Shown here: positions 22,002-47,056 of the stretch, piece after piece
Position numbering within the stretch: the stretch's first letter is position 1
Layout: each line of letters opens with the position of its first letter
From: Nitrospirota bacterium
GTDB lineage: Bacteria; Nitrospirota; Nitrospiria; Nitrospirales; Nitrospiraceae
Assembly: GCA_030684575.1 (NCBI GenBank)
Contig: JAUXVD010000019.1
Span: 1 to 64,000 of the forward strand
Reading direction: 5' to 3'
DNA: 64,000 nt
Notes under the pieces: generated by a model
Databases searched by the model: none
Seen by the model: only the letters and a program-made list of their open reading frames with translations
What the model was told of the DNA's origin: nothing
Program-made: the position numbers and the translations under genes

Positions 22002-24497
22002 ATGATGAGTCATACACCATTGAGTACAGTTTCGATCAAGACAGAGCCCATTTCTCCTGACATTGCCGAGGAGATCGAGACCTTTGAGGCCGAAGCGACG
22101 CGCCTGGCTTCCGGCGATGTGTCGAGCGATCTGTTCAGGCCGTTTCGGCTCCAATACGGTATTTACGGGCAGCGGCAAGCCGGTGTCCAGATGGTTCGCA
22201 TCAAGATTCCGTTCGGTGGCATGACGGCCAATCAGCTTCGCCGTGTTGCAGAATTGACCGAGCACTATGCCACCGGGGTCGGGCATGTCACGACGCGTCA
22301 GGATATCCAGTTGCATTTCGTCGAACTCAAGGATGTGCCAACGATCATGCGTGGGTTGGCAGAAGTCGGGCTAACGACGAGAGAGGCCTGCGCCAATACC
22401 GTTCGTAACGTGACGGCCTGTCACCTGGCCGGGGTGTGCCAGGGGGAAGTATTCGATGTTACGCCCTATGCGAAGACCGTGGCGCTGCACCTGTTGCGGA
22501 ACCCGCTCAACCAGAGCCTTCCCCGAAAGTTTAAGATCGCGTTTTCCGGTTGCAAACAGGACTGCGCCCTCACGCCGATTCACGATGTCGGTCTGCTCGC
22601 GGCGAAACGTGCCGATGGAGTCATCGGCTTTCGCATGGTGGCAGGCGGCGGACTCGGTTCGGCCCCTCGCCTGGCCCAGGTTCTCCGGGAGTTCACCCCG
22701 ATGGATGAACTCATTCCAAGTGTCGAAGCGGTGATTCGAGTGTTCGACACCCTGGGCAATCGAAAAAATCGGACGAAGGCCCGGATGAAGTTCGTGATCG
22801 AAAAGCTGGGGTTCGAGGAGTTTAAACGTCGTTGGGAAGAGGCCTATGTATCGCTGGGGCATGCCCGTCCGACCCACGAGCCCATCAAATTACTGTCGTA
22901 TCCGGATGAACCGGTTCCTCTCATCATGCCGACGTCGAGTAGGCCGAAGCAGGCAGTGGTGCAGACTAATGGCCATGCCGATGGCGTATCGGCGGAGACG
23001 CCGTTCGAGATGTGGCGACGGACCAATGTGGTGCGACAGAAGCAAGAAGGTTACGTCGCCGCCGTGACTAAACTTTTCATGGGCGATCTCACGACAGAGC
23101 AGATGCTGCTCATCGCCGATCTTGCCGATCGCTACTCCAATGGCAACATTCGGACGACGATCAATCAGAACATGATCATCCGCTGGATACCAGAGTCGCG
23201 TATCGCCGACCTCTATGCCGATTTGGCCTCACAGGGTTTGGCCGATCCCGGCGCCGAATTGGTTGAAGATATTATCGCCTGCCCCGGTACCGACACATGT
23301 GGCTTGGGGATCACGTCTTCCAAGGGGCTCGCGCGGGCCCTGGCCGAGGTATTTCCAGCCGGGCGGGTTCCCGAAGACTTACATGACGTCACGGTCAAGA
23401 TCAGCGGCTGCCACAACTCCTGCGCGCAACACCATATCGCCACGATCGGTTTGCATGGTGTCGGAAAGCGGATTGCCGATCATGTCGCGCCTTTCTATGA
23501 ATTGCATTTGGGCGGGCGGGTCGACGGGACCGCGAAGATCGGACAGATGGTGGTGAAGTTGCCGGCGAAGAGCGTGTCGGCGGCGATCACACATTTGATT
23601 CGTGTCTACCGGCGAGATCGTCTTTCAGGTGAAGGGTTGCCGGCCTTTATCGATCGCGTTGGCAAGGTCAAACTCAAGGACGAGTTGATTCCCTATACCA
23701 TCGTTCCATCCTTTCAAGAGGACCCCACGTTTTACTATGACTGGGAAGGTGAGGCGGAGTTCGTTCTGGAAGATCTCGGACCTGGCGAATGCGCCGGGGG
23801 CGCGCTTGAAATGATCGAGAACGGCATTCTCGAAGCCGATCAAGAGCTCTATCAGGCGAAGCTGCTTGTCGATAACCATCAATATTCCGTGTCGGTGAAC
23901 AAGTCCTATCGAGCCGTGTTGTCCGCTGCGAAGGCGTTGCTCGTGACGGAAGGGCTTGAGCCCTCGACGGATGCGGAAACCTTTTTCGAGTTTGATAGCC
24001 GCATTGCCCAGAAGGGCATCGTTCCGGCGATGTATCGGGACTTGAGAAAGAGTGTTGGCGATTTAGGGCCCAAGGAGACGACCGGCGAATCGGCCCGTGA
24101 GAAGATGGTGTTTGCGAAGGGCTTCGTCGATGCCTGCCGTTCCGCCACGGAGCAGATGGGCAAAGATCTCAAGTTGGCTGCGGTGGGCCAGGCAACGGCC
24201 AAGACTAGTGCGACACTTGAGGTGAAGCCGGCGGTGTCTTCTGTTGCCACGCCTGCTACGTCCGGTGCGCCGGTGTACGATCTGCGGGGGGTGGCCTGCC
24301 CGCTGAACTATGTGAAGACGAAGTTGAAACTTGAGATGATGGATGCGGGTGAGCAATTGGAAGTCTGGCTCGATGCGGGCGAGCCGATCAAAAACGTGCC
24401 CCTGAGTTTAAAAAACGATGGGCATAAGCTGTTGTTGCAGGAACCACTCGAAGCCGAGGCGGCTCATTTTCGGATTCTGGTCGAAAAAGTAGAGTGA
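22002..24497 (+). CDS. Ferredoxin-type sulfite/nitrite reductase fused to a TusA-like domain
   Basis: An 831-residue fusion. The NirA/SiR-type siroheme reductase occupies about residues 30-590. The second half has the cluster-siroheme motif C427-x5-C433 and C470-x3-C474 (CPGTDTC, CHNSC). The pseudo-repeat in the first half also keeps C140-x5-C146 and C184-x3-C188 (CHLAGVC, CKQDC). A helical HEPN-like stretch (about 610-740) follows, then a C-terminal TusA/SirA domain with the persulfide cysteine C766 in DLRGVACPL. The context (Rrf2, CysH, CysD, CysN) indicates reduction of sulfite to sulfide for biosynthesis; nitrite activity cannot be excluded from sequence. Confidence 0.9.
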   Translation: MMSHTPLSTVSIKTEPISPDIAEEIETFEAEATRLASGDVSSDLFRPFRLQYGIYGQRQAGVQMVRIKIPFGGMTANQLRRVAELTEHYATGVGHVTTRQDIQLHFVELKDVPTIMRGLAEVGLTTREACANTVRNVTACHLAGVCQGEVFDVTPYAKTVALHLLRNPLNQSLPRKFKIAFSGCKQDCALTPIHDVGLLAAKRADGVIGFRMVAGGGLGSAPRLAQVLREFTPMDELIPSVEAVIRVFDTLGNRKNRTKARMKFVIEKLGFEEFKRRWEEAYVSLGHARPTHEPIKLLSYPDEPVPLIMPTSSRPKQAVVQTNGHADGVSAETPFEMWRRTNVVRQKQEGYVAAVTKLFMGDLTTEQMLLIADLADRYSNGNIRTTINQNMIIRWIPESRIADLYADLASQGLADPGAELVEDIIACPGTDTCGLGITSSKGLARALAEVFPAGRVPEDLHDVTVKISGCHNSCAQHHIATIGLHGVGKRIADHVAPFYELHLGGRVDGTAKIGQMVVKLPAKSVSAAITHLIRVYRRDRLSGEGLPAFIDRVGKVKLKDELIPYTIVPSFQEDPTFYYDWEGEAEFVLEDLGPGECAGGALEMIENGILEADQELYQAKLLVDNHQYSVSVNKSYRAVLSAAKALLVTEGLEPSTDAETFFEFDSRIAQKGIVPAMYRDLRKSVGDLGPKETTGESAREKMVFAKGFVDACRSATEQMGKDLKLAAVGQATAKTSATLEVKPAVSSVATPATSGAPVYDLRGVACPLNYVKTKLKLEMMDAGEQLEVWLDAGEPIKNVPLSLKNDGHKLLLQEPLEAEAAHFRILVEKVE

Positions 24498-24625
24498 GAA
24501 GGGAGGCACCAGGGTTGGTCTGTGCTCCCAGAACGCGCACGATGTGAATGTGCTCGTTCGATGGGCGCAGTGGACCAATCCTGATGCCTCTCCTGATGAA
24601 AGTGTGGAGAGGGAGAGGGGTTAGC

Positions 24626-25345
24626 GTGGAGAATAGAGAGCATTCAACTTCTGCCGAGGAGCTTGCGGCCTGGAGTGAGTCGTTCGAGGCGAAGCAGCCA
24701 CAAGAGCTGTTGACCGCAGTGATTGAGCGGTTTGCGCCGAAGATCGTGCTGGCCTGCAGTTTTGGGGCGGAGGATGTGGTGCTCTTGGACATGGTCCACC
24801 GCATCAATCCCTCCGTGCCGCTCTTCTATCTCGATACGGAGTTCCTGTTTCCTGAGACCTACACGACGCGCGATCGTGTGATCGAGCAGTATGGGCTACA
24901 GCCGCAACAGGTCATTCAGGTACAGTCGCTGCTGACGTCGGAGCAGCAGGCGGCTCAGCATGGCGAGGCTCTGTGGACGCGCCATCCCGATCAATGTTGC
25001 GAGTTGCGCAAAGTGGAGCCGCTGACCCGCGTGCTCAAGGGATTCGACGCCTGGATCACCGGCATCAGGCGGGACCAGTCTCCCACGAGAGCCCAGGCGA
25101 AACTGATCGAGTGGGATCAGAAGTTTCAGTTGGTCAAAGTGAATCCCCTCGCGAAGTGGGCGTGGGAGGATGTCTGGACCTACATTCGTGTCTACGAGGT
25201 TCCCTACAACGAACTGCATGACCGCAACTATCCCAGTATCGGCTGCACCCATTGTACGAGCCCAGTGATGCCCGGCGAAGACCCCCGCGCGGGACGATGG
25301 AAAAATTTTACCAAGACGGAGTGCGGGTTACACAAGGCCCCGTAA
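24626..25345 (+). CDS. cysH: APS reductase, assimilatory Fe-S type
   Basis: A 239-residue CysH, reducing adenylyl sulfate to sulfite. The PP-loop-like N-terminus (LACSFGAEDVVLLDM) and the LDTEFLFPET segment bind the nucleotide. The four [4Fe-4S] cysteines of the APS-specific subclass are present (DQCCELRK and GCTHCTSPVMPGED), as is the catalytic cysteine in ECGLH at the C-terminus. APS rather than PAPS is therefore the expected substrate. The start is GTG with AGGGAGAGG upstream; an earlier in-frame start precedes homologous sequence. It supplies sulfite to the upstream reductase. Confidence 0.95.
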   Translation: MENREHSTSAEELAAWSESFEAKQPQELLTAVIERFAPKIVLACSFGAEDVVLLDMVHRINPSVPLFYLDTEFLFPETYTTRDRVIEQYGLQPQQVIQVQSLLTSEQQAAQHGEALWTRHPDQCCELRKVEPLTRVLKGFDAWITGIRRDQSPTRAQAKLIEWDQKFQLVKVNPLAKWAWEDVWTYIRVYEVPYNELHDRNYPSIGCTHCTSPVMPGEDPRAGRWKNFTKTECGLHKAP

Positions 25346-25350
25346 TATCG

Positions 25351-26406
25351 ATGCAGGAATTTATTGCAAAAATTGCCAAGGGGCCAAGGGCTGCCAAGGA
25401 TCTGACCTGGGACGAAGCGAAGCGGGCGATGAAGGCCCTCATTGAAGGAGAGGCCACGCCGGCACAGATCGGGGCCTTTCTCATTGCCATGAGAATCAAG
25501 ATGGAGTCTGTCACCGAGCTGGCTTCGATGACCGCGACCGCACGTTCGTATGTTGCGCCTGTGCCGATCCCCCGAGAGCTTGGTGTCGTGGATCTGCCGA
25601 GTTATGCAGGGAAGCAGGAGACCTTTCATGCCCTTGCGGCTGCCGCCATCGTGGCAGCATCGGCAGGAGCGTCGGTGTTGATGCATGGGTATGACGGGAT
25701 TCCCGGTCGCGCGGGGAATGCCGGGGTGCTCAAGGCCCTGGGCTTGCCGATCGACATGGAGCCGAAAGTCGCGGCAGAGGCGGTGAGGAAGCATGGGTTC
25801 GCCTACCTCGACATCGCCTTGTACCATCCCCCGGTCTATCGCTTTTTGGAGATGCGACAGGAGTTGGGCGCGCGGAACGTCTTTCATCCGATTGCGAGAC
25901 TCTTGAACCCGGCTCGCGCCGCGTCACAGGTCGTCGGTCTGTCTCATCCGCCTCACTTTGAAAAGACCGCTGAAGTGTTGCGGATGTTGGCCTGCCCTCG
26001 GGCGCTGGTGGTCAGCGGCGTGGAAGGCGATCCGGAGTTGTCGATTAGCGCACTCACCAGGGTGCTGGAATTGCGGGATGAGCGGATTACTCCTCTTTCG
26101 TTCGCGTCAAAAGATGCCGGATTGCCGCTGGGTACGCCGCGCGACATGGCCGGCTTTCCGTCGGACCAGCGAGACAAGGAAGCCGACCTGCTTCGGCGGA
26201 TTCTCCATAATCAGGTACAGGGCGGATCGCACAACTGGGTCTTGATGAATGCGGCGTTGATTCTGTACGCCGCAGGCAAAGGGGCCACGTGGGTGGCCTG
26301 CATTCCGCTGGCGCGTCGAGCGCTCGAAGAAGGGGCTGCGGCACGCAAATTAGAAGAGCTGACACAGGAGCCGGTGGGCACAGGCGTACCAGGACGAACC
26401 CATTGA
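25351..26406 (+). CDS. Anthranilate phosphoribosyltransferase-like protein (TrpD2/YbiB-like)
   Basis: A 351-residue protein with the glycosyltransferase family 3 fold. The helical N-terminal domain reads [33 protein letters not shown], and the alpha/beta domain includes [21 protein letters not shown]. The PRPP-binding signature GTGGD of true TrpD is replaced by a SYAGKQET-type sequence, as in TrpD2/YbiB proteins, which bind nucleic acid rather than act in tryptophan synthesis. It sits 5 bp after cysH and 20 bp before cysD, so it is part of the sulfur operon. Its role there is unknown. GTG/ATG starts overlapping cysH are possible alternatives. Confidence 0.8.
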
Positions 26407-26426
26407 CACAGGAGAGGATCGAGTCC

Positions 26427-27224
26427 GTGCAACATCTTCGTCATTTAGAAGACCAGAGCGTCTACATTCTGAGAGAAGCCTACAAACATTTCGGCAACTT
26501 GGCCATGTTGTGGTCGATGGGGAAGGATTCGACCGTCCTGCTGTGGCTGGCCAGAAAAGCCTTTTTCGGCCATGTCCCGCTTCCGCTTCTCCATGTCGAC
26601 ACGAGCTACAAAATTCCAGCCATGATCGAATATCGGGATCGAGTGGCCCGCGAGTGGGGCCTGAAATTGGTCGTGGGGCAAAACAAGGAAGCGCTCGCGG
26701 CCGGGATGAACCATACCCTGGGCCGCGTGACGTGCTGTACGGCCTTGAAGACCAATGGGCTCAAGCAACTGATCGAGCAAAAGGGCTATACGGGCATCAT
26801 TCTCGGTGTGCGGGCAGACGAGGAAGGGACCAGAGCCAAGGAGCGCTATTTCTCACCGCGCGACAAACATGGCGATTGGGATTTCCGCGATCAACCACCG
26901 GAACTCTGGGATCAATTTAAGACGACCTTTCCTCCGGGGACCCATATCCGGATCCATCCGTTGCTGGATTGGACGGAAATCAATATCTGGGAATACATTA
27001 AATACGAGAACATTCCCTTCATCGATCTCTATCTCGACAAGGGAGACGGGACGCGTTATCGCAGTCTCGGCTGTGCCCCCTGTACCACGCCGATCAAATC
27101 GACGGCGAAGTCCGTCGATGAGATTATTGACGAATTGCGGCATACCACAGTCGCAGAGCGATCGGGCCGCGCGCAGGATGAAGGACGCGGGATGGAGTTG
27201 CTACGTAAAGACGGCTACATGTAA
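26427..27224 (+). CDS. cysD: Sulfate adenylyltransferase subunit 2
   Basis: A 265-residue CysD, the PP-loop subunit that forms APS from sulfate and ATP. Visible are [19 protein letters not shown] at the N-terminus, the PP-loop [49 protein letters not shown] and [12 protein letters not shown] is chosen, with GGAGAGG 9 nt upstream; a TTG overlapping the previous gene's stop is the alternative. It is separated from cysN by repeat copy R1, so the usual cysDN coupling is interrupted. Confidence 0.95.
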
Positions 27225-27225
27225 T

Positions 27226-27350
27226 GAGGATGCTGAAAAAGTCTGCCAGCTTCGTGCTCGGCTCATCGAAATCCTCAACGTGCCGCAGGGAGGACGCCTG
27301 CGGTTTCTCTTCTCCTGCAGCCTTGCTGGGCTGCCTGTTTGAACATTCTG
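27226..27350. repeat. Dispersed hairpin repeat, copy R1 (125 bp)
   Basis: It begins 1 bp after the cysD stop with GAGGATGCTGAAAAAG and ends GTTTGAACATTCTG, directly before the cysN ribosome-binding site. The outer arms are partly complementary. The inner stem here is CCGCAGG/CCTGCGG. It is the same length as copy R2. Confidence 0.85.
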
Positions 27351-27360
27351 GAGTGTGAAA

Positions 27361-29205
27361 ATGACGGAAGTAATTGCGAAATCATCAGACAATCTCAACA
27401 TCGTCATCGTCGGGCATGTGGACCATGGCAAGTCTACCTTGCTGGGGCGGCTCTATGCCGATACGGGATCGTTGCCGGACGGCAAACTTGAAAAGGTTCA
27501 AGCGATCTGTCAGCAGCAGGGGAAGCAGTTCGAGTACGCGTTCCTGTTCGATGCCTTCCTGGAAGAGCAGGAGCAGGGAATCACGATCGATACCGCGCGG
27601 ACATTTTTCGGCTGGAAGGGCCGGCAATATATCATCATCGATGCGCCGGGGCATAAGGAGTTTCTCAAGAACATGATTTCCGGGGCGGCCCGGGCTGAAG
27701 GGGCGTTGTTGTTGATCGATGCCTTGGAGGGTGTGAAGGAGCAGTCCAAGAAGCATGGCTATCTCTTGTCGCTCCTGGGCGTCCGCCAGTTTGCCGTGGT
27801 CGTGAACAAGATGGATCTGGTCGGCTACAAGCAGGATGTGTTCGACGCGATCGAAAAGGAATATCGCGAGTTCCTCGGGCAGTTCAAGGCGGTTCCGCAA
27901 CAAATCATTCCTGTCAGCGCCAAGCTCGGCGATAACATCGCCAACCGGAGCGAGCAGATGCCCTGGTATAGCGGTCCGACCGTGCTGGATGCGCTTAGTG
28001 CGTTTAGGAAGGAGCCTGGGCGCTCCGAGCAACCGCTTCGCCTGCCGGTTCAGGACGTGTACAAGTTCGACGCCCGCCGCATCATCGCCGGACGCATTAC
28101 GGCAGGGCAATTGAAAGTCGGCGATTCGGTGGTGTTCTCGCCCTCGAATAAGCGGGCAACGGTCAAAACGATTGAAGCGTTCAATGTCGATCCCCTGCCG
28201 GTTGAAGGCCATGCAGGCCAGTCCGTTGGGATCACGCTCGATGAACAGATTTTTGTCGAGCGAGGAGAGGTGGCATCGCATCAGGAGCAGCTTCCGCTCG
28301 TCTCGACGGCCTTTCGCGCGAATGTGTTCTGGCTGGGCCGGAAGCCGTTGGAACGAGGACGGCGGTATCAGCTTAGAGTGGCGACGAAGGAAGTGGATTG
28401 TGAAGTCGCGACCATTCACCGGATCATCGATACGATGGATCTGGCTCAGCAGCAGGGCAGCAGCGTGGTGAATAAGAATCAGGTTGCAGAGATTACCATT
28501 CGAGCCAAAGCGCCGGTGGCGTTCGATCTCTCGGCGTCGTTCGAGGCGACAGGCCGGTTCGTGCTCGTGGATGAGTACGACATTGCCGGCGGCGGCATCG
28601 TCACAGAACTGGTCCATGACGATCAGGAATTCCTCCGCGAAGAAGCGCGGCAGCGCGATTTTGCCTGGGTCAAGGGCGAGGTCGGGGTCGAGGACCGTGC
28701 GCAGCAATATGGTCACCGAGCCGCAATTGTGCTGGTGACTGGGGGGCGGCATACAGGGAAGTCATTTTTAGCCAAGACTATCGAGGCCCGGCTTGTGGCA
28801 GACGGCCGGCATGCCTACTTGCTCGATGGGGGGAATCTCCGCCGCGGACTTGATGCAGACCTCACGGAGGGGGAGCGGGGGCAGGCGGCCGAAATGGCTC
28901 GTCGTTATGGCGAGGTGGCGAGGTTGCTGGTCGATACAGGGCTGATCGTGGTCTCGACGACCAATCCTTTCGGGATGGCCTACGTCGAGGCGGCTCAGGC
29001 TATTCGTACACTCGTCCACCCGGTCCCAGTCATCGCCATTCATATGAGTAAGGTGCCGGAGGAAGCTCCGCCAAATACGGATATCGTGCTGTCAGGTCCG
29101 GTAGACTTTGATGCGGCGACCAGACAAATTCTTGAAGAGCTCAAACGCCGCGGAGTTTTGGCTCAGGCGATTGGGGCGAAGCCGATCTTTCAGTACTCCA
29201 TCTAG
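27361..29205 (+). CDS. cysN: Sulfate adenylyltransferase subunit 1 with APS-kinase-like C-terminal domain
   Basis: A 614-residue protein. The CysN GTPase part (about 1-430) has G1 [10 protein letters not shown]3 DAPGHKEF and G4 NKMDL, and drives the CysD reaction. The C-terminal ~165 residues resemble CysC APS kinase, with P-loop GGRHTGKS and [19 protein letters not shown]. The usual DGDN motif reads DGGN and the following arginine-rich region is altered, so kinase activity is uncertain. Because CysH is of the APS type, PAPS is not needed for reduction. The start ATG has GGAG 7 nt upstream. The stop codon TAG abuts repeat R2. Confidence 0.93.
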
Positions 29206-30054: not shown

Positions 30055-30975
30055 ATGGCCGTCGAGAAAGATTTGAAAGCCATCCTTGGCAAATTGAAGT
30101 TCTCAGACGATGCCAAGGTCCTCGCGCAGATTTCTGAAAATACGAAATTGGTCCATGCCCGCATGGCCAGCATCAAGCACAAGCTGGTGGTCATGAGCGG
30201 AAAGGGCGGCGTGGGCAAGAGCATGACGACCGTGAACCTGGCCCTGGCATTTGCGCGGCAGGGGGCGAAGGTCGGATTGCTCGACGTGGATCTGAACGGA
30301 CCCTGTGTGCCCCGTATGTTGGGCATGCATGGTCAGTCGTTGACCATGAGGCCAGAGGGAGCGACTCCACCGGTCGGGCCGCTTGGCGTGAAAGTCGCGT
30401 CGATGGACTTCTTTCTGGACGATGCCTCGCCGGTTCGCTGGAAGGGGCCGATGGATGTCAGCCCGGTGTGGCTTGGCCTGATGGAGATGAACGTCATCCG
30501 TGAGTTTTTAGCCGATGTCGTGTGGGGCGAGCTCGACTATCTCCTCGTCGATTTGCCTCCAGGAGCGGCAGCGGATAAGCCACCCGTCATCGCTGGGTTC
30601 ATTCCAGATTTGGCGGGAGCGATCGTCGTCACGACCCCGTCGGAAGTGGCCTCAGACGTGGTGCAAAAGTCTGTCACCTATGCGCGGGATATGGGGATCA
30701 AGGTCCTGGGCATGGTCGAGAACATGAGTGAGTATCGTTGTCCCTCTTGCGGGGAGGTCAACGAGCTATTCGAGGGCAACACCGAGGCGATGTGTGAGGC
30801 GCTGGACCTGCCGTTGCTCGGACGAATTCCTTTCGACCGGAAGCTCGCGCGCACCTTCGACAAGGGTGAGCCGTTGCTCGACGACACGTATCCGACGATT
30901 CAACGGTACCAGGAAATTGCCGGACGTATCAGGACATTACTCGATTACAAGAAGGTGCTGGCCGATAAACTGTGA
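30055..30975 (+). CDS. Mrp/NBP35-family P-loop ATPase
   Basis: A 306-residue Mrp-type (ApbC/NBP35) Fe-S carrier ATPase. The deviant Walker A MSGKGGVGKS, switch LLDVDLNGPCVPRMLG and VDLPPG are clear, as is the family's C-terminal C-x-x-C (CPSCGEVNELF), which bridges an Fe-S cluster between subunits. It lacks the N-terminal DUF59 domain of some Mrp proteins. A role in loading Fe-S clusters, possibly into the neighbouring Fe-S sulfur enzymes, is inferred. Repeat R3 follows 13 bp after the stop. Confidence 0.92.
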   Translation: MAVEKDLKAILGKLKFSDDAKVLAQISENTKLVHARMASIKHKLVVMSGKGGVGKSMTTVNLALAFARQGAKVGLLDVDLNGPCVPRMLGMHGQSLTMRPEGATPPVGPLGVKVASMDFFLDDASPVRWKGPMDVSPVWLGLMEMNVIREFLADVVWGELDYLLVDLPPGAAADKPPVIAGFIPDLAGAIVVTTPSEVASDVVQKSVTYARDMGIKVLGMVENMSEYRCPSCGEVNELFEGNTEAMCEALDLPLLGRIPFDRKLARTFDKGEPLLDDTYPTIQRYQEIAGRIRTLLDYKKVLADKL

Positions 30976-31202: not shown

Positions 31203-31967
31203 ATGAAATTCGTGTGCCTCAATTGTGAAACCTACATGAACTTTGAGAAGGTGGAGAAGCCCGGAGAGGGCACGCTCGGCGTGTTCTTCGGCTGCCCGTC
31301 TTGCAGCGCCAAGTTTTCTATGGTGACCAACCCTGGTGAAACTCAGATGGTCAGTTCTCTCGGCGTGCAGTTGGGTGGACGTACCGTAGCCGCCGAGCCC
31401 TTTGAGATGACCCGTGGCACGTTGAAGGACGAGGCGACCGCTGGCTCCGGTCAAATGGCAGCCTATCTGAACGAGAAGATTCAGGCTGGCCAACCGGCTG
31501 CAGCCGCACCGACGGCCACCGCCGCACCGGCGGGTAAGCCTGGAGAAAAGCCCAGTGGCGGTTGTCCCTTCTCCGCGATGGTCGCGGAAATGGGGCTGAC
31601 GTCTGGCGGAAAACCTGCCACCGGTGGCGCAGCGGCCTCCGAGTTTACCTGGTCAGTCGATGCAAAAGAGAAGCTCGAGCGTCTTCCGTCATTCGTGAAG
31701 CCAATGGTGCAGAGCAGTGTCGAGGCTTTTGCCCGTAAGCAGGGGTACCAGACCATTACGTTGCAAGTGATGGACGATTCCAAGAGCGACTCGAGCAACG
31801 GGATGGCCTGGACGCCTGAGGCTGAGAAGCGGCTTGAGAATATCCCGGACTTCATCCGTCCGATGGCCCGCAAAGAGGTCGAGCGGGTGGCGAAGGAGCG
31901 CGGGTTGGCGACCATTACGGCGCAAGTGATGGATGAGACGAAAGATAAGTTTATGAAGTTCATGTAA
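31203..31967 (+). CDS. Zinc-ribbon protein with two PCP-reductase-like domains
   Basis: A 254-residue protein. The N-terminus is a zinc ribbon (C5-LN-C8 and C31-PS-C34). A low-complexity Ala/Pro linker (about 100-120) leads to two copies of the short helical PCP_red-type domain, known from the C-terminus of light-independent protochlorophyllide reductase subunit B. The copies read WSVDAKEKLERLPSFVKPMV and WTPEAEKRLENIPDFIRPMA, each ending in an IT-x-Q-V-M-D strand. No catalytic subunit of that enzyme is nearby and the organism is presumably not phototrophic, so the domain must do something else here. A related repeat protein lies at 46-47 kb. Confidence 0.75.
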   Translation: MKFVCLNCETYMNFEKVEKPGEGTLGVFFGCPSCSAKFSMVTNPGETQMVSSLGVQLGGRTVAAEPFEMTRGTLKDEATAGSGQMAAYLNEKIQAGQPAAAAPTATAAPAGKPGEKPSGGCPFSAMVAEMGLTSGGKPATGGAAASEFTWSVDAKEKLERLPSFVKPMVQSSVEAFARKQGYQTITLQVMDDSKSDSSNGMAWTPEAEKRLENIPDFIRPMARKEVERVAKERGLATITAQVMDETKDKFMKFM

Positions 31968-31996
31968 GGAATAGATTCGTGCAAGTGTGGGAGCAG

Positions 31997-32024
31997 AGGC
32001 CCATCCAGTTTTCTGGATGGGCCT
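31997..32024 (+). terminator. Strong intrinsic terminator-like hairpin
   Basis: AGGCCCATCCAG-TTTT-CTGGATGGGCCT is a perfect 12-bp stem with a 4-nt loop, followed by TTCC. It lies 30 bp after the zinc-ribbon/PCP-reductase-like gene. A start for the next gene upstream of it is therefore unlikely. Confidence 0.8.
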
Positions 32025-32080
32025 TTCCATTACAACGAGGGTGTTCACTGTCTGTCGCGTTCCGATTGGCGAGCCTGTGG

Positions 32081-32800
32081 ATGGGGCTTGCCATTACCGT
32101 GATGGTTGTAGCCCTGTCCATTGATGCAGGTTGGCTCTATGCTGAGGCCGTTGGCGGCGAGCATGCTTCCGGTCATGATCACCATGGCCTCACCGTCAGT
32201 GGGTGGGAGGGCTCGGCTCAGGGCATCGCCTATTCGGAGTTCAATCACCATCTCGCCGGGTTCATTGTTCTGCTGATGGGTTGTGCCGAGTTGAGCCATC
32301 CCTTACGCCTGACGTCTCTGTTGTGGATGAGGCTGGTATTGCCTATCGCCATGGTATCGGGCAGCCTTATCCTCCTAATTTGGAGCGATCATGAGGCCTG
32401 GCCAATCGGATCTCTCGGTTTTCTACAGACATTTTCAGGGGAAGATCCGGAAATCCTCCAACATAAAATCTATGGATTCTTGTTGTTCTTTGTAGGATCT
32501 ATTGAAGTGCTACGGCGGGTTGGCCGTATCTCCTATGGCTTATGGAGTCTGCCCCTGCCCCTATTTGCCATCATCGGTGGGCTCATGCTCTTTGGCCATT
32601 CGCATGGAGCCCATCTCTCTGCGTACAAAATCGCAATGGACCATGCGTTGATGGGGACTCTTGCCGTGACAGCTGGTTCGTCCAAGCTGCTCGTCGAACG
32701 GTTTCGCTTCCCATCGCATACAGTTGGCTCAAAATGGGAGTTGCTCTGGGCTGGTCTGATCGTCCTCATCGGGGTACAGTTATTGATGTATTCTGAGTAG
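32081..32800 (+). CDS. Multi-pass membrane protein with His-rich segment
   Basis: About 239 residues with six or seven hydrophobic helices. A His-rich, probably extracytoplasmic stretch (GGEHASGHDHHG) follows the first helix. Further histidines occur in or near helices (NHHLAGFIVLL, GHSHGAHLSAYK, MDHALMG), the sort of placement seen in CopD-like or cytochrome-like metal or heme membrane proteins. No defined family could be named. The start is uncertain: ATG at 32081 is taken because the perfect terminator hairpin lies between the preceding gene and the further-upstream GTG at 31979. Confidence 0.6.
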   Translation: MGLAITVMVVALSIDAGWLYAEAVGGEHASGHDHHGLTVSGWEGSAQGIAYSEFNHHLAGFIVLLMGCAELSHPLRLTSLLWMRLVLPIAMVSGSLILLIWSDHEAWPIGSLGFLQTFSGEDPEILQHKIYGFLLFFVGSIEVLRRVGRISYGLWSLPLPLFAIIGGLMLFGHSHGAHLSAYKIAMDHALMGTLAVTAGSSKLLVERFRFPSHTVGSKWELLWAGLIVLIGVQLLMYSE

Positions 32801-46054: not shown

Positions 46055-47056
46055 ATGAATTCACCAGATTCCCAGAATACAGCTGAGGTTGAGGTTCGAT
46101 GGACGGACGAGGCATCCAAGCGTCTGGAGCGGGCACCGATCTTTTTGCGTGGCATGGTCCGTCGGCTGGCCGAGAAAAAGGCCAGAGAGCTTGGCTATGC
46201 AGAGATCACGGGGGAAACCCTCGATCAGTTCAAGAACCAAATGATGGGCGGGATGGGTGGCGAATCCGGCATGGCGGACGCTGCGGAGCAAATGGCGCAA
46301 GGCCATCTGCCCTGGACTGCCGCGGCAAAGGAACGGCTGAATTCCGTTCCTGAGTTTATGCGCAATATGACCAAACAGATTGCCGAGGAGATTGCCAAGG
46401 AGCGGGGCCACCTTGAGGTGAACGTCGATCTGTTTGAAAAGGTTGAAGCACTGGGAGATCTCCGGGAGGCCGCTGCTCCTCCGCTTGAATGGAGTGAGGG
46501 CGCGTTGGCTCAACTCCACGAAAAATTGAAGCAATCGCCCCCGATCGCCATCGAATTTGTCACGGACATGTTGCGGCGGGACACTGAAGATTTGGCAAGA
46601 GAGAAGGGCCTGACGCGGATCGACGAGTCGGTGTTGCTTCAGTTGTGGGATGCGCCACAGGAGCGAGTGACGTGGACCGATGAAGCGTGGAAGCGCCTAC
46701 AGACGTCCCCGGATTTTGTACGGAGCGGAATTCGTAAGGCTGCTGAGCGACGGGCTCGGAAGCTTGGGCTTAAGGAAGTGGATTCGGAGCATCTGACGAC
46801 CTTTCGGAACCAGGCTATGATGAAAGCCGTCAAAAGGATTCGCTCGTTTGGCTACAACGAGTTGACGTTTGAAGCGTTCGATACGGCGCTGGAGAAGACA
46901 AAGCGGCTTCAGGGCAATGACCAGGCAGAGAAACGTCTGCAGGAAATTCGAGGGCATTTTGCCGATCCGGATGTGAAGAAGCCGGACGGTGGGACGCTTG
47001 GCGCCGATTTGATGGGCCGCTTTCGCCGGTATCTCAAAGGAGAAGGAACGCTCTAG
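46055..47056 (+). CDS. Tandem PCP-reductase-like repeat protein
   Basis: A 333-residue soluble protein made of four or five divergent copies of the PCP_red-type helical unit: WTDEASKRLERAPIFLRGMV (about 15), WTAAAKERLNSVPEFMRNMT (86), WSEGALAQL...PPIAIEFV (145), WTDEAWKRLQTSPDFVRSGI (206), then a partial unit. Each has W-(T/S)-x-x-A at the start and a basic helix with A(R/K)xxG. It has no zinc ribbon, unlike the related protein at 31.2 kb. Function unknown. It starts 14 bp after the IHF-like gene, so it belongs to the rpsA operon. Repeat R4 abuts its stop. Confidence 0.75.
   Translation: MNSPDSQNTAEVEVRWTDEASKRLERAPIFLRGMVRRLAEKKARELGYAEITGETLDQFKNQMMGGMGGESGMADAAEQMAQGHLPWTAAAKERLNSVPEFMRNMTKQIAEEIAKERGHLEVNVDLFEKVEALGDLREAAAPPLEWSEGALAQLHEKLKQSPPIAIEFVTDMLRRDTEDLAREKGLTRIDESVLLQLWDAPQERVTWTDEAWKRLQTSPDFVRSGIRKAAERRARKLGLKEVDSEHLTTFRNQAMMKAVKRIRSFGYNELTFEAFDTALEKTKRLQGNDQAEKRLQEIRGHFADPDVKKPDGGTLGADLMGRFRRYLKGEGTL

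Follow-up and report, generated by a model that had tools for sequence, protein, structure and literature searches.

ZnR-PCP2, a cysteine-ribbon protein with two PCP_red units, as a possible part of a non-photosynthetic haem and Fe-S maturation module in Nitrospira and its relatives

The gene at 31203-31967 of the window studied here, a stretch of 64,000 nucleotides (G000:C19:1-64000) from a Nitrospirota genome of 3.79 Mb that is 99.84% complete, encodes a protein, denoted ZnR-PCP2, in which a four-cysteine ribbon is joined to two PCP_red units. The reading that we favour, tentatively and just short of calling it probable, is that ZnR-PCP2 is part of a conserved PCP_red module, unconnected with photosynthesis, whose task would be to mature haem centres, Fe-S centres or both in a respiratory complex; the most likely complex is the bd-like terminal oxidase found in the nitrite-oxidising Nitrospira and in related bacteria. 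By gene order, PCP_red proteins are tied to an Fe-S carrier ATPase and to an AhbD/NirJ-like radical SAM enzyme; in several lineages the linkage extends to genes for haem synthesis and for a bd-like oxidase. The pathway assignment is moderately supported; the data themselves establish domain architecture, linkage of genes, co-occurrence and homology, and the biochemistry given below is the one that we infer. This haem and respiration reading of PCP_red is new here, the earlier note on this DNA having offered no function.

Tandem PCP_red units and their fold

The relevant features of the window, all on the forward (+) strand, are as follows.

30055..30975, +, Mrp/NBP35-type P-loop Fe-S carrier ATPase, directly upstream of ZnR-PCP2 (PF10609 NUBPL, 3.9e-75)
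31203..31967, +, ZnR-PCP2, four-cysteine ribbon and two PCP_red units (PF08369, 5.2e-33, two stretches; 27-sequence alignment; AlphaFold model)
31215..31304, +, CxxC...CxxC ribbon of ZnR-PCP2 (C5, C8, C31, C34), NrdR-ribbon-like in the model
31563..31571, +, conserved CPF linker motif of the two-unit form (alignment)
31650..31781, +, PCP_red unit 1 of ZnR-PCP2 (4.1e-14, 55 bits)
31809..31943, +, PCP_red unit 2 of ZnR-PCP2 (2.1e-17, 65.5 bits; structural matches of the model)
31979..32800, +, membrane-like protein of 273 aa after ZnR-PCP2, membership of the module uncertain
46055..47056, +, PCP4, four PCP_red units and a conserved C-terminal region (PF08369, 1.2e-48, four stretches; alignment of 18)
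46100..46801, +, the units of PCP4, at 46100-46234, 46313-46441, 46490-46642 (weak) and 46673-46801 (whole-genome PF08369 scan)

The ORF of ZnR-PCP2 is real, starts with ATG and encodes 254 residues, and its match to PF08369 (113.3 bits, curated cut-off 32.5) confirms the PCP_red-like units that the earlier note had read in this stretch. The four ribbon cysteines are invariant in all 27 aligned sequences, that of the window among them, and in the AlphaFold model (mean pLDDT 70.4, with a linker of low confidence) a ribbon of three strands precedes two helical units; the proposed fusion of both parts holds. Having kept two CxxC pairs, the ribbon is a putative zinc ribbon, with zinc as its predicted ligand. 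The CPF motif is found in 22/22 rows of the ZnR-PCP2 alignment and in none of the four one-unit ribbon forms shown alongside.

PCP_red is an already known domain, represented by the Pfam family PF08369 and by two NMR structures (2kru and 2l09). In the model, unit 2 matches 2kru with a Z-score of 9.0 (rmsd 2.2 over 56 residues), 2l09 with 8.9 (rmsd 1.5 over 56 residues) and 2ynm_D with 7.2, and the model of PCP4 has the same two top matches, 2kru and 2l09. By PF08369 and by fold this is the domain of BchB/ChlB, subunit B of the light-independent protochlorophyllide reductase (2kru, 2ynm_D). Unlike BchB/ChlB, ZnR-PCP2 and PCP4 lack the nitrogenase-like catalytic body and carry two or four tandem units, joined in ZnR-PCP2 to a cysteine ribbon, and the organisms concerned have no photosynthesis genes. 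The free-standing unit Asr4154 of Nostoc (2l09) also shares the fold, but it has 62 residues in the solved chain, lacks a ribbon and is cyanobacterial.

The model allows another comparison, as its ribbon resembles that of NrdR (9gex_A: Z 5.3, rmsd 2.2 over 44 residues) and its helical units match RuvB lids with Z up to 7.4 (8efy_F: rmsd 1.7 over 54 residues), which could point to a nucleic-acid-binding or regulatory protein made of an NrdR-like ribbon and histone- or AAA-lid-like units. Such a role is very improbable, considering that these scores lie in what the structure-search tool itself gives as the range of common arrangements, that the solved PCP_red structures score higher and that the neighbour table contains no DNA-linked gene kept beside the ribbon gene across families. 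The histone-like version is not favoured, the model being like RuvB lids and weakly like histones, but not above common arrangements.

The second protein announced at 46-47 kb is indeed present, with four units and not five. PCP4 (333 aa) scores 163.4 bits against PF08369 (cut-off 32.5); in the whole-genome scan three of its four units exceed the cut-off, and the third one, 46490-46642, reaches 26.9 bits. A PCP4 match was obtained in 41/41 genomes searched, near full length in most. The region after unit four (46805-47053) ranks with the best-conserved stretches of PCP4 in the alignment of 18 sequences and finds nothing near the cut-off in Pfam.

The whole-genome scan located 12 PF08369 units spread over five proteins of the window's genome, the other three being:

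radical SAM/SPASM protein of 461 aa with one unit (model searches)
protein of 707 aa with two Usp domains, a rubredoxin-like domain and three units
second ribbon protein, of 166 aa, cysteine-rich at its N terminus and with two units

In a domain tree of 103 units and 45 columns, to which three BchB units were added, PCP_red units cluster by protein type and by position, with support that is often weak; therefore, on this alignment, the tandem units look old and not recently duplicated. The BchB units fall with those of the radical SAM proteins at a support of 0.656, a grouping too weak to rely on.

The domain outside phototrophy

PF08369 was found in 164 of 295 sampled Nitrospirota genomes and in every sampled genome of the window's class (113 by row count), where all but three have at least eight matches. 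The E-values given above and this conservation throughout the class exclude a chance origin of the domain matches in ZnR-PCP2 and PCP4. Families f12 and f20 of the same sample include genomes that have a single PCP_red unit and lack a bd-like protein, possibly reflecting a different use.

A relic or cryptic chlorophyll pathway has next to no probability, its only common point with BchB being the PCP_red domain itself. No BchB body was found in the window's genome: the DPOR_BchB profile gave ten matches, all restricted to its own C-terminal tail (beginning at position 442 of 512 or later), the best of them at 43.3 bits against an equivalog cut-off of 490. Matches to BchL in this genome all stay below the cut-off, and the BchL profile also matches all 14 control genomes, in one of them over the cut-off. 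The reaction-centre protein Photo_RC (PF00124) is absent from the window's genome and was found in 0/295 sampled Nitrospirota genomes, with a positive cyanobacterial control. A chlorophyll pathway was rejected on these grounds. The earlier note had seen no chlorophyll gene nearby, and reading parts of the window brought none to light. The profile match is significant, and of BchB and the reaction centre the searches found only the BchB tail; the earlier note's proposal of a separate use of the domain is supported, and is strengthened by the five paralogues and by the Mrp/NBP35 and bd-like oxidase links described below. That this use is undescribed agrees with searches of open-licence papers, which brought up none on PCP_red outside phototrophy.

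PF08369 is therefore unsafe as a sign of photosynthesis, since 164/295 Nitrospirota genomes carry it and none has a reaction centre. In the accessible portion of PMC12815261, PF08369 is named among the most prevalent Pfams of phototrophs, and genomes are pre-screened by photosynthesis-related Pfams before a pathway check; a pre-screen such as the one set out in that portion would let many non-phototrophs through.

The Mrp/NBP35-type ATPase and its linkage to the ribbon gene

The ATPase encoded upstream of ZnR-PCP2 shares with the Mrp/NBP35/ApbC Fe-S carriers the NUBPL match, the Walker motif (GKGGVGKS in 80 of 81 distinct relatives) and the CxxC motif (C[PS]xC in the C-terminal half in 77/81). 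It differs from them in scoring below the MrpORP and ApbC equivalog cut-offs and in being tied to a ribbon-PCP_red gene. Indeed, it lies directly upstream of the ribbon gene in the window and in 20 of 21 relatives taken, the other flanking genes varying between families, and all 15 copies in 29 searched genomes stand beside a ribbon-PCP_red gene. The pair also turns up in Elusimicrobia (L125, and L146, where a single gene intervenes) and in L133, from a record titled Myxococcales.

A survey of named loci covered the best 80 of 200 relatives, among which the nearest named record to the window's Mrp is Nitrospira sp. RSF6 (94.8% identity), so that the organism is probably a Nitrospira or closely related to it. 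A script found the ribbon ORF in 67 of these loci, with Mrp upstream in 36 and not upstream in 31; in 30 of the latter the protein is a shorter, Nitrospira-type one, some of these loci being cut by the locus end, and the remaining one (L107) contains only a fragment of Mrp within the locus. Thirteen of the 80 loci were not scored, and among these thirteen Mrp was seen upstream by eye in L103, L104, L109, L114, L125 and L146. One locus (L151), which bears a Nitrospira-type gene, comes from a record titled uncultured Nitrosospira sp. and may be mislabelled.

The single exception among the 21 relatives (L040) belongs to a Nitrospira sublineage in which Mrp was lost: at an E-value of 1e-60 it is absent throughout eight genomes of this sublineage, which keeps ZnR-PCP2, and the synteny around the ribbon gene is maintained (L040, L127, L129, L130, L150, L152). 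Mrp as an obligate partner was rejected for this reason.

These data bear on the possibility of general Fe-S trafficking, in which ZnR-PCP2 would serve numerous Fe-S proteins as an adaptor of Mrp/NBP35 or as its client loader, and genes for haem and oxidase would be neighbours only because such genomes are redox-rich. No gene neighbours the ribbon gene more constantly than Mrp, and the radical SAM and rubredoxin-like domains of the paralogues likewise belong to metal-centre proteins. However, one sublineage keeps ZnR-PCP2 without Mrp, PPOX and haem o synthase (see below) are not Fe-S proteins, and the link to the bd-like oxidase runs in one direction, without exception in the sample. We regard general trafficking as unlikely, with a chance that is real.

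Other neighbours are less constant. A homologue of the 273-aa protein adjoins ZnR-PCP2 in some family-level relatives only, and profile searches place it in no confident family. ZnR-PCP2 and PCP4 in the window are surrounded by genes for sulfate assimilation, by yebC/ruvAB and by housekeeping genes, with no haem genes among them. In the window's family, the sulfate-assimilation genes (22002-29205; sulfite/nitrite reductase-like, CysH-like, CysD-like and CysNC, names read off the sequence) are found a short way upstream of the Mrp-ribbon pair. In three genomes of family f27 (L059, L063 and L064), a one-unit ribbon-PCP_red gene is flanked, without Mrp, by a conserved 530-aa protein and by a gene that we take to be LeuD-like. 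In a Candidatus Scalindua record the ribbon gene adjoins DUF420, which is presumably related to the oxidase-assembly protein CtaM.

Haem-synthesis genes, the bd-like oxidase and the proposed function

The radical SAM-PCP_red enzyme of the window's genome scores 333 and 317 bits with AhbD/NirJ2-type models (cut-off 500), and in the seven proteins tested the top model was always TIGR04055 (NirJ2) or TIGR04545 (AhbD haem b synthase), the best scores of 304 to 344 bits remaining below the equivalog cut-off of 500. AhbD and NirJ/NirJ2 thus supply the highest-scoring models; the paralogue differs from them in having all its scores below cut-off and an extra C-terminal PCP_red unit. From these scores, a porphyrin is its likely substrate. 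The enzyme also matches mycofactocin, PqqE and other SPASM maturase models, and a Haem_oxygenas_2/TENA-like gene, matching a Pfam family named for TENA/THI-4/PQQC, is a neighbour in several loci. Both facts would suit a SPASM enzyme acting on a peptide or on a novel redox cofactor, with PCP_red units as recognition elements, but tetrapyrrole models came top in 7/7 cases and we deem this reading improbable. An AhbD-like enzyme as the sole route to haem b is also unlikely: ferrochelatase is present in the window's genome, and therefore ordinary haem b needs no AhbD.

The haem and/or Fe-S maturation reading draws as well on the genes found near this enzyme outside the class. Protoporphyrinogen oxidase (PPOX) lies near the radical SAM-PCP_red gene in five loci (four of four tested over the TIGR00562 cut-off); haem o synthase does so in two loci, and each time exceeds its cut-off. 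In L203 and L205, whose genomes were sampled from the same phylum as the myxobacterial locus, one cluster includes PPOX (TIGR00562, 223/231 bits vs 97.85), haem o synthase (TIGR01473, 272/300 bits vs 210) and a cytochrome c-EB_dh protein, and in another Nitrospirota family (L057 and L067) PPOX (304/291 bits) adjoins the radical SAM-PCP_red gene. A single locus (L114) gathers PCP4, Mrp, ZnR-PCP2, Haem_oxygenas_2, DUF420, SUMF-like, CopD-like, radical SAM-PCP_red and a further PCP_red protein, and in L056 the Mrp and ribbon-PCP_red genes are flanked by c-type cytochromes. When 23 PCP_red loci outside the class were compared with 40 other stretches (368 kb) from 14 of the same genomes, cytochrome c-EB_dh was found in 8/23 vs 0/40 (Fisher p 1.3e-4) and PPOX in 5/23 vs 1/40 (p 0.02), in a test that was not blind, its reference proteins having been taken from those loci after the loci were seen. 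One of the 23 loci (L210) was not flagged by our own PCP_red profile, and two of the 40 controls (L247 and L248) appear masked.

In the window's genome, the second ribbon-PCP_red gene heads a bd-like gene run within one 14-kb stretch:

L264:601-14818 (at G000:C8), DUF420, 166-aa ribbon-PCP_red protein, 360-aa membrane-like protein, CydA-like protein (PF01654, 6.1e-16), DUF3047, two SUMF-like proteins, a second CydA-like protein, two c-type cytochromes and cytochrome c-EB_dh

Its order of CydA-like protein, two c-type cytochromes and c-EB_dh resembles, by gene order, the bd-like clusters of Nitrospira and of Manganitrophaceae TO_1 as given in the accessible parts of PMC6606698 and PMC9040806, respectively. 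The former, in the part available, reports that none of the analysed Nitrospira genomes has a canonical haem-copper oxidase and that a novel oxidase of the bd-like type may be used instead, and describes the bd-like cluster of N. moscoviensis as conserved in Nitrospina and anammox bacteria. The word 'protochlorophyllide' is absent from the main text of both papers.

At a threshold of 1e-40, a CydA-like protein is found in 137/295 Nitrospirota genomes, and PCP_red in all 137 of these. Outside the class, PCP_red occurs in 24/24 genomes with a CydA-like protein (ten families) vs 27/158 without one (Fisher p 4e-16, uncorrected for ancestry), and this co-occurrence is partly shared ancestry. The reverse fails, given that 27 of the 51 PCP_red genomes outside the class, many of them with one unit, have no CydA-like protein at that threshold. 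The cytochrome c-EB_dh set (141/295 genomes) was left out of the co-occurrence, as plain c-type cytochromes match it too.

All these observations could be integrated in a model in which PCP_red would be the docking unit common to the proteins of the pathway. The Mrp/NBP35 ATPase may carry a [4Fe-4S] cluster to clients or redox partners, with the ribbon protein as adaptor; the radical SAM/SPASM-PCP_red enzyme, of the AhbD/NirJ kind, would alter a porphyrin side chain; and the product, a haem or an Fe-S centre, would be delivered to the bd-like oxidase as the putative client. The module reading is favoured because of the Mrp linkage, the AhbD/NirJ2 scores, the PPOX and haem o synthase neighbours, the c-EB_dh enrichment, the G000:C8 run, the cytochromes of L056 and the CydA-like co-occurrence. 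Against it were counted the 27 PCP_red genomes without a CydA-like protein, the Mrp-less sublineage, the window surroundings without haem genes, ferrochelatase, shared ancestry and the neighbour references picked post hoc. A bolder version, which we consider rather unlikely, takes PCP_red as an ancient module of tetrapyrrole pathways that chlorophyll synthesis borrowed and that, in Nitrospirota and scattered phyla, would organise a haem-modifying line (AhbD/NirJ-like radical SAM enzyme, PPOX, haem o synthase, Mrp/NBP35 and the ribbon adaptor) making a modified haem for an orphan bd-like terminal oxidase.

By the accessible part of PMC6606698, it is still to be settled which terminal oxidase Nitrospira uses; a dedicated maturation module would open a direct way to the cofactors of this enzyme.
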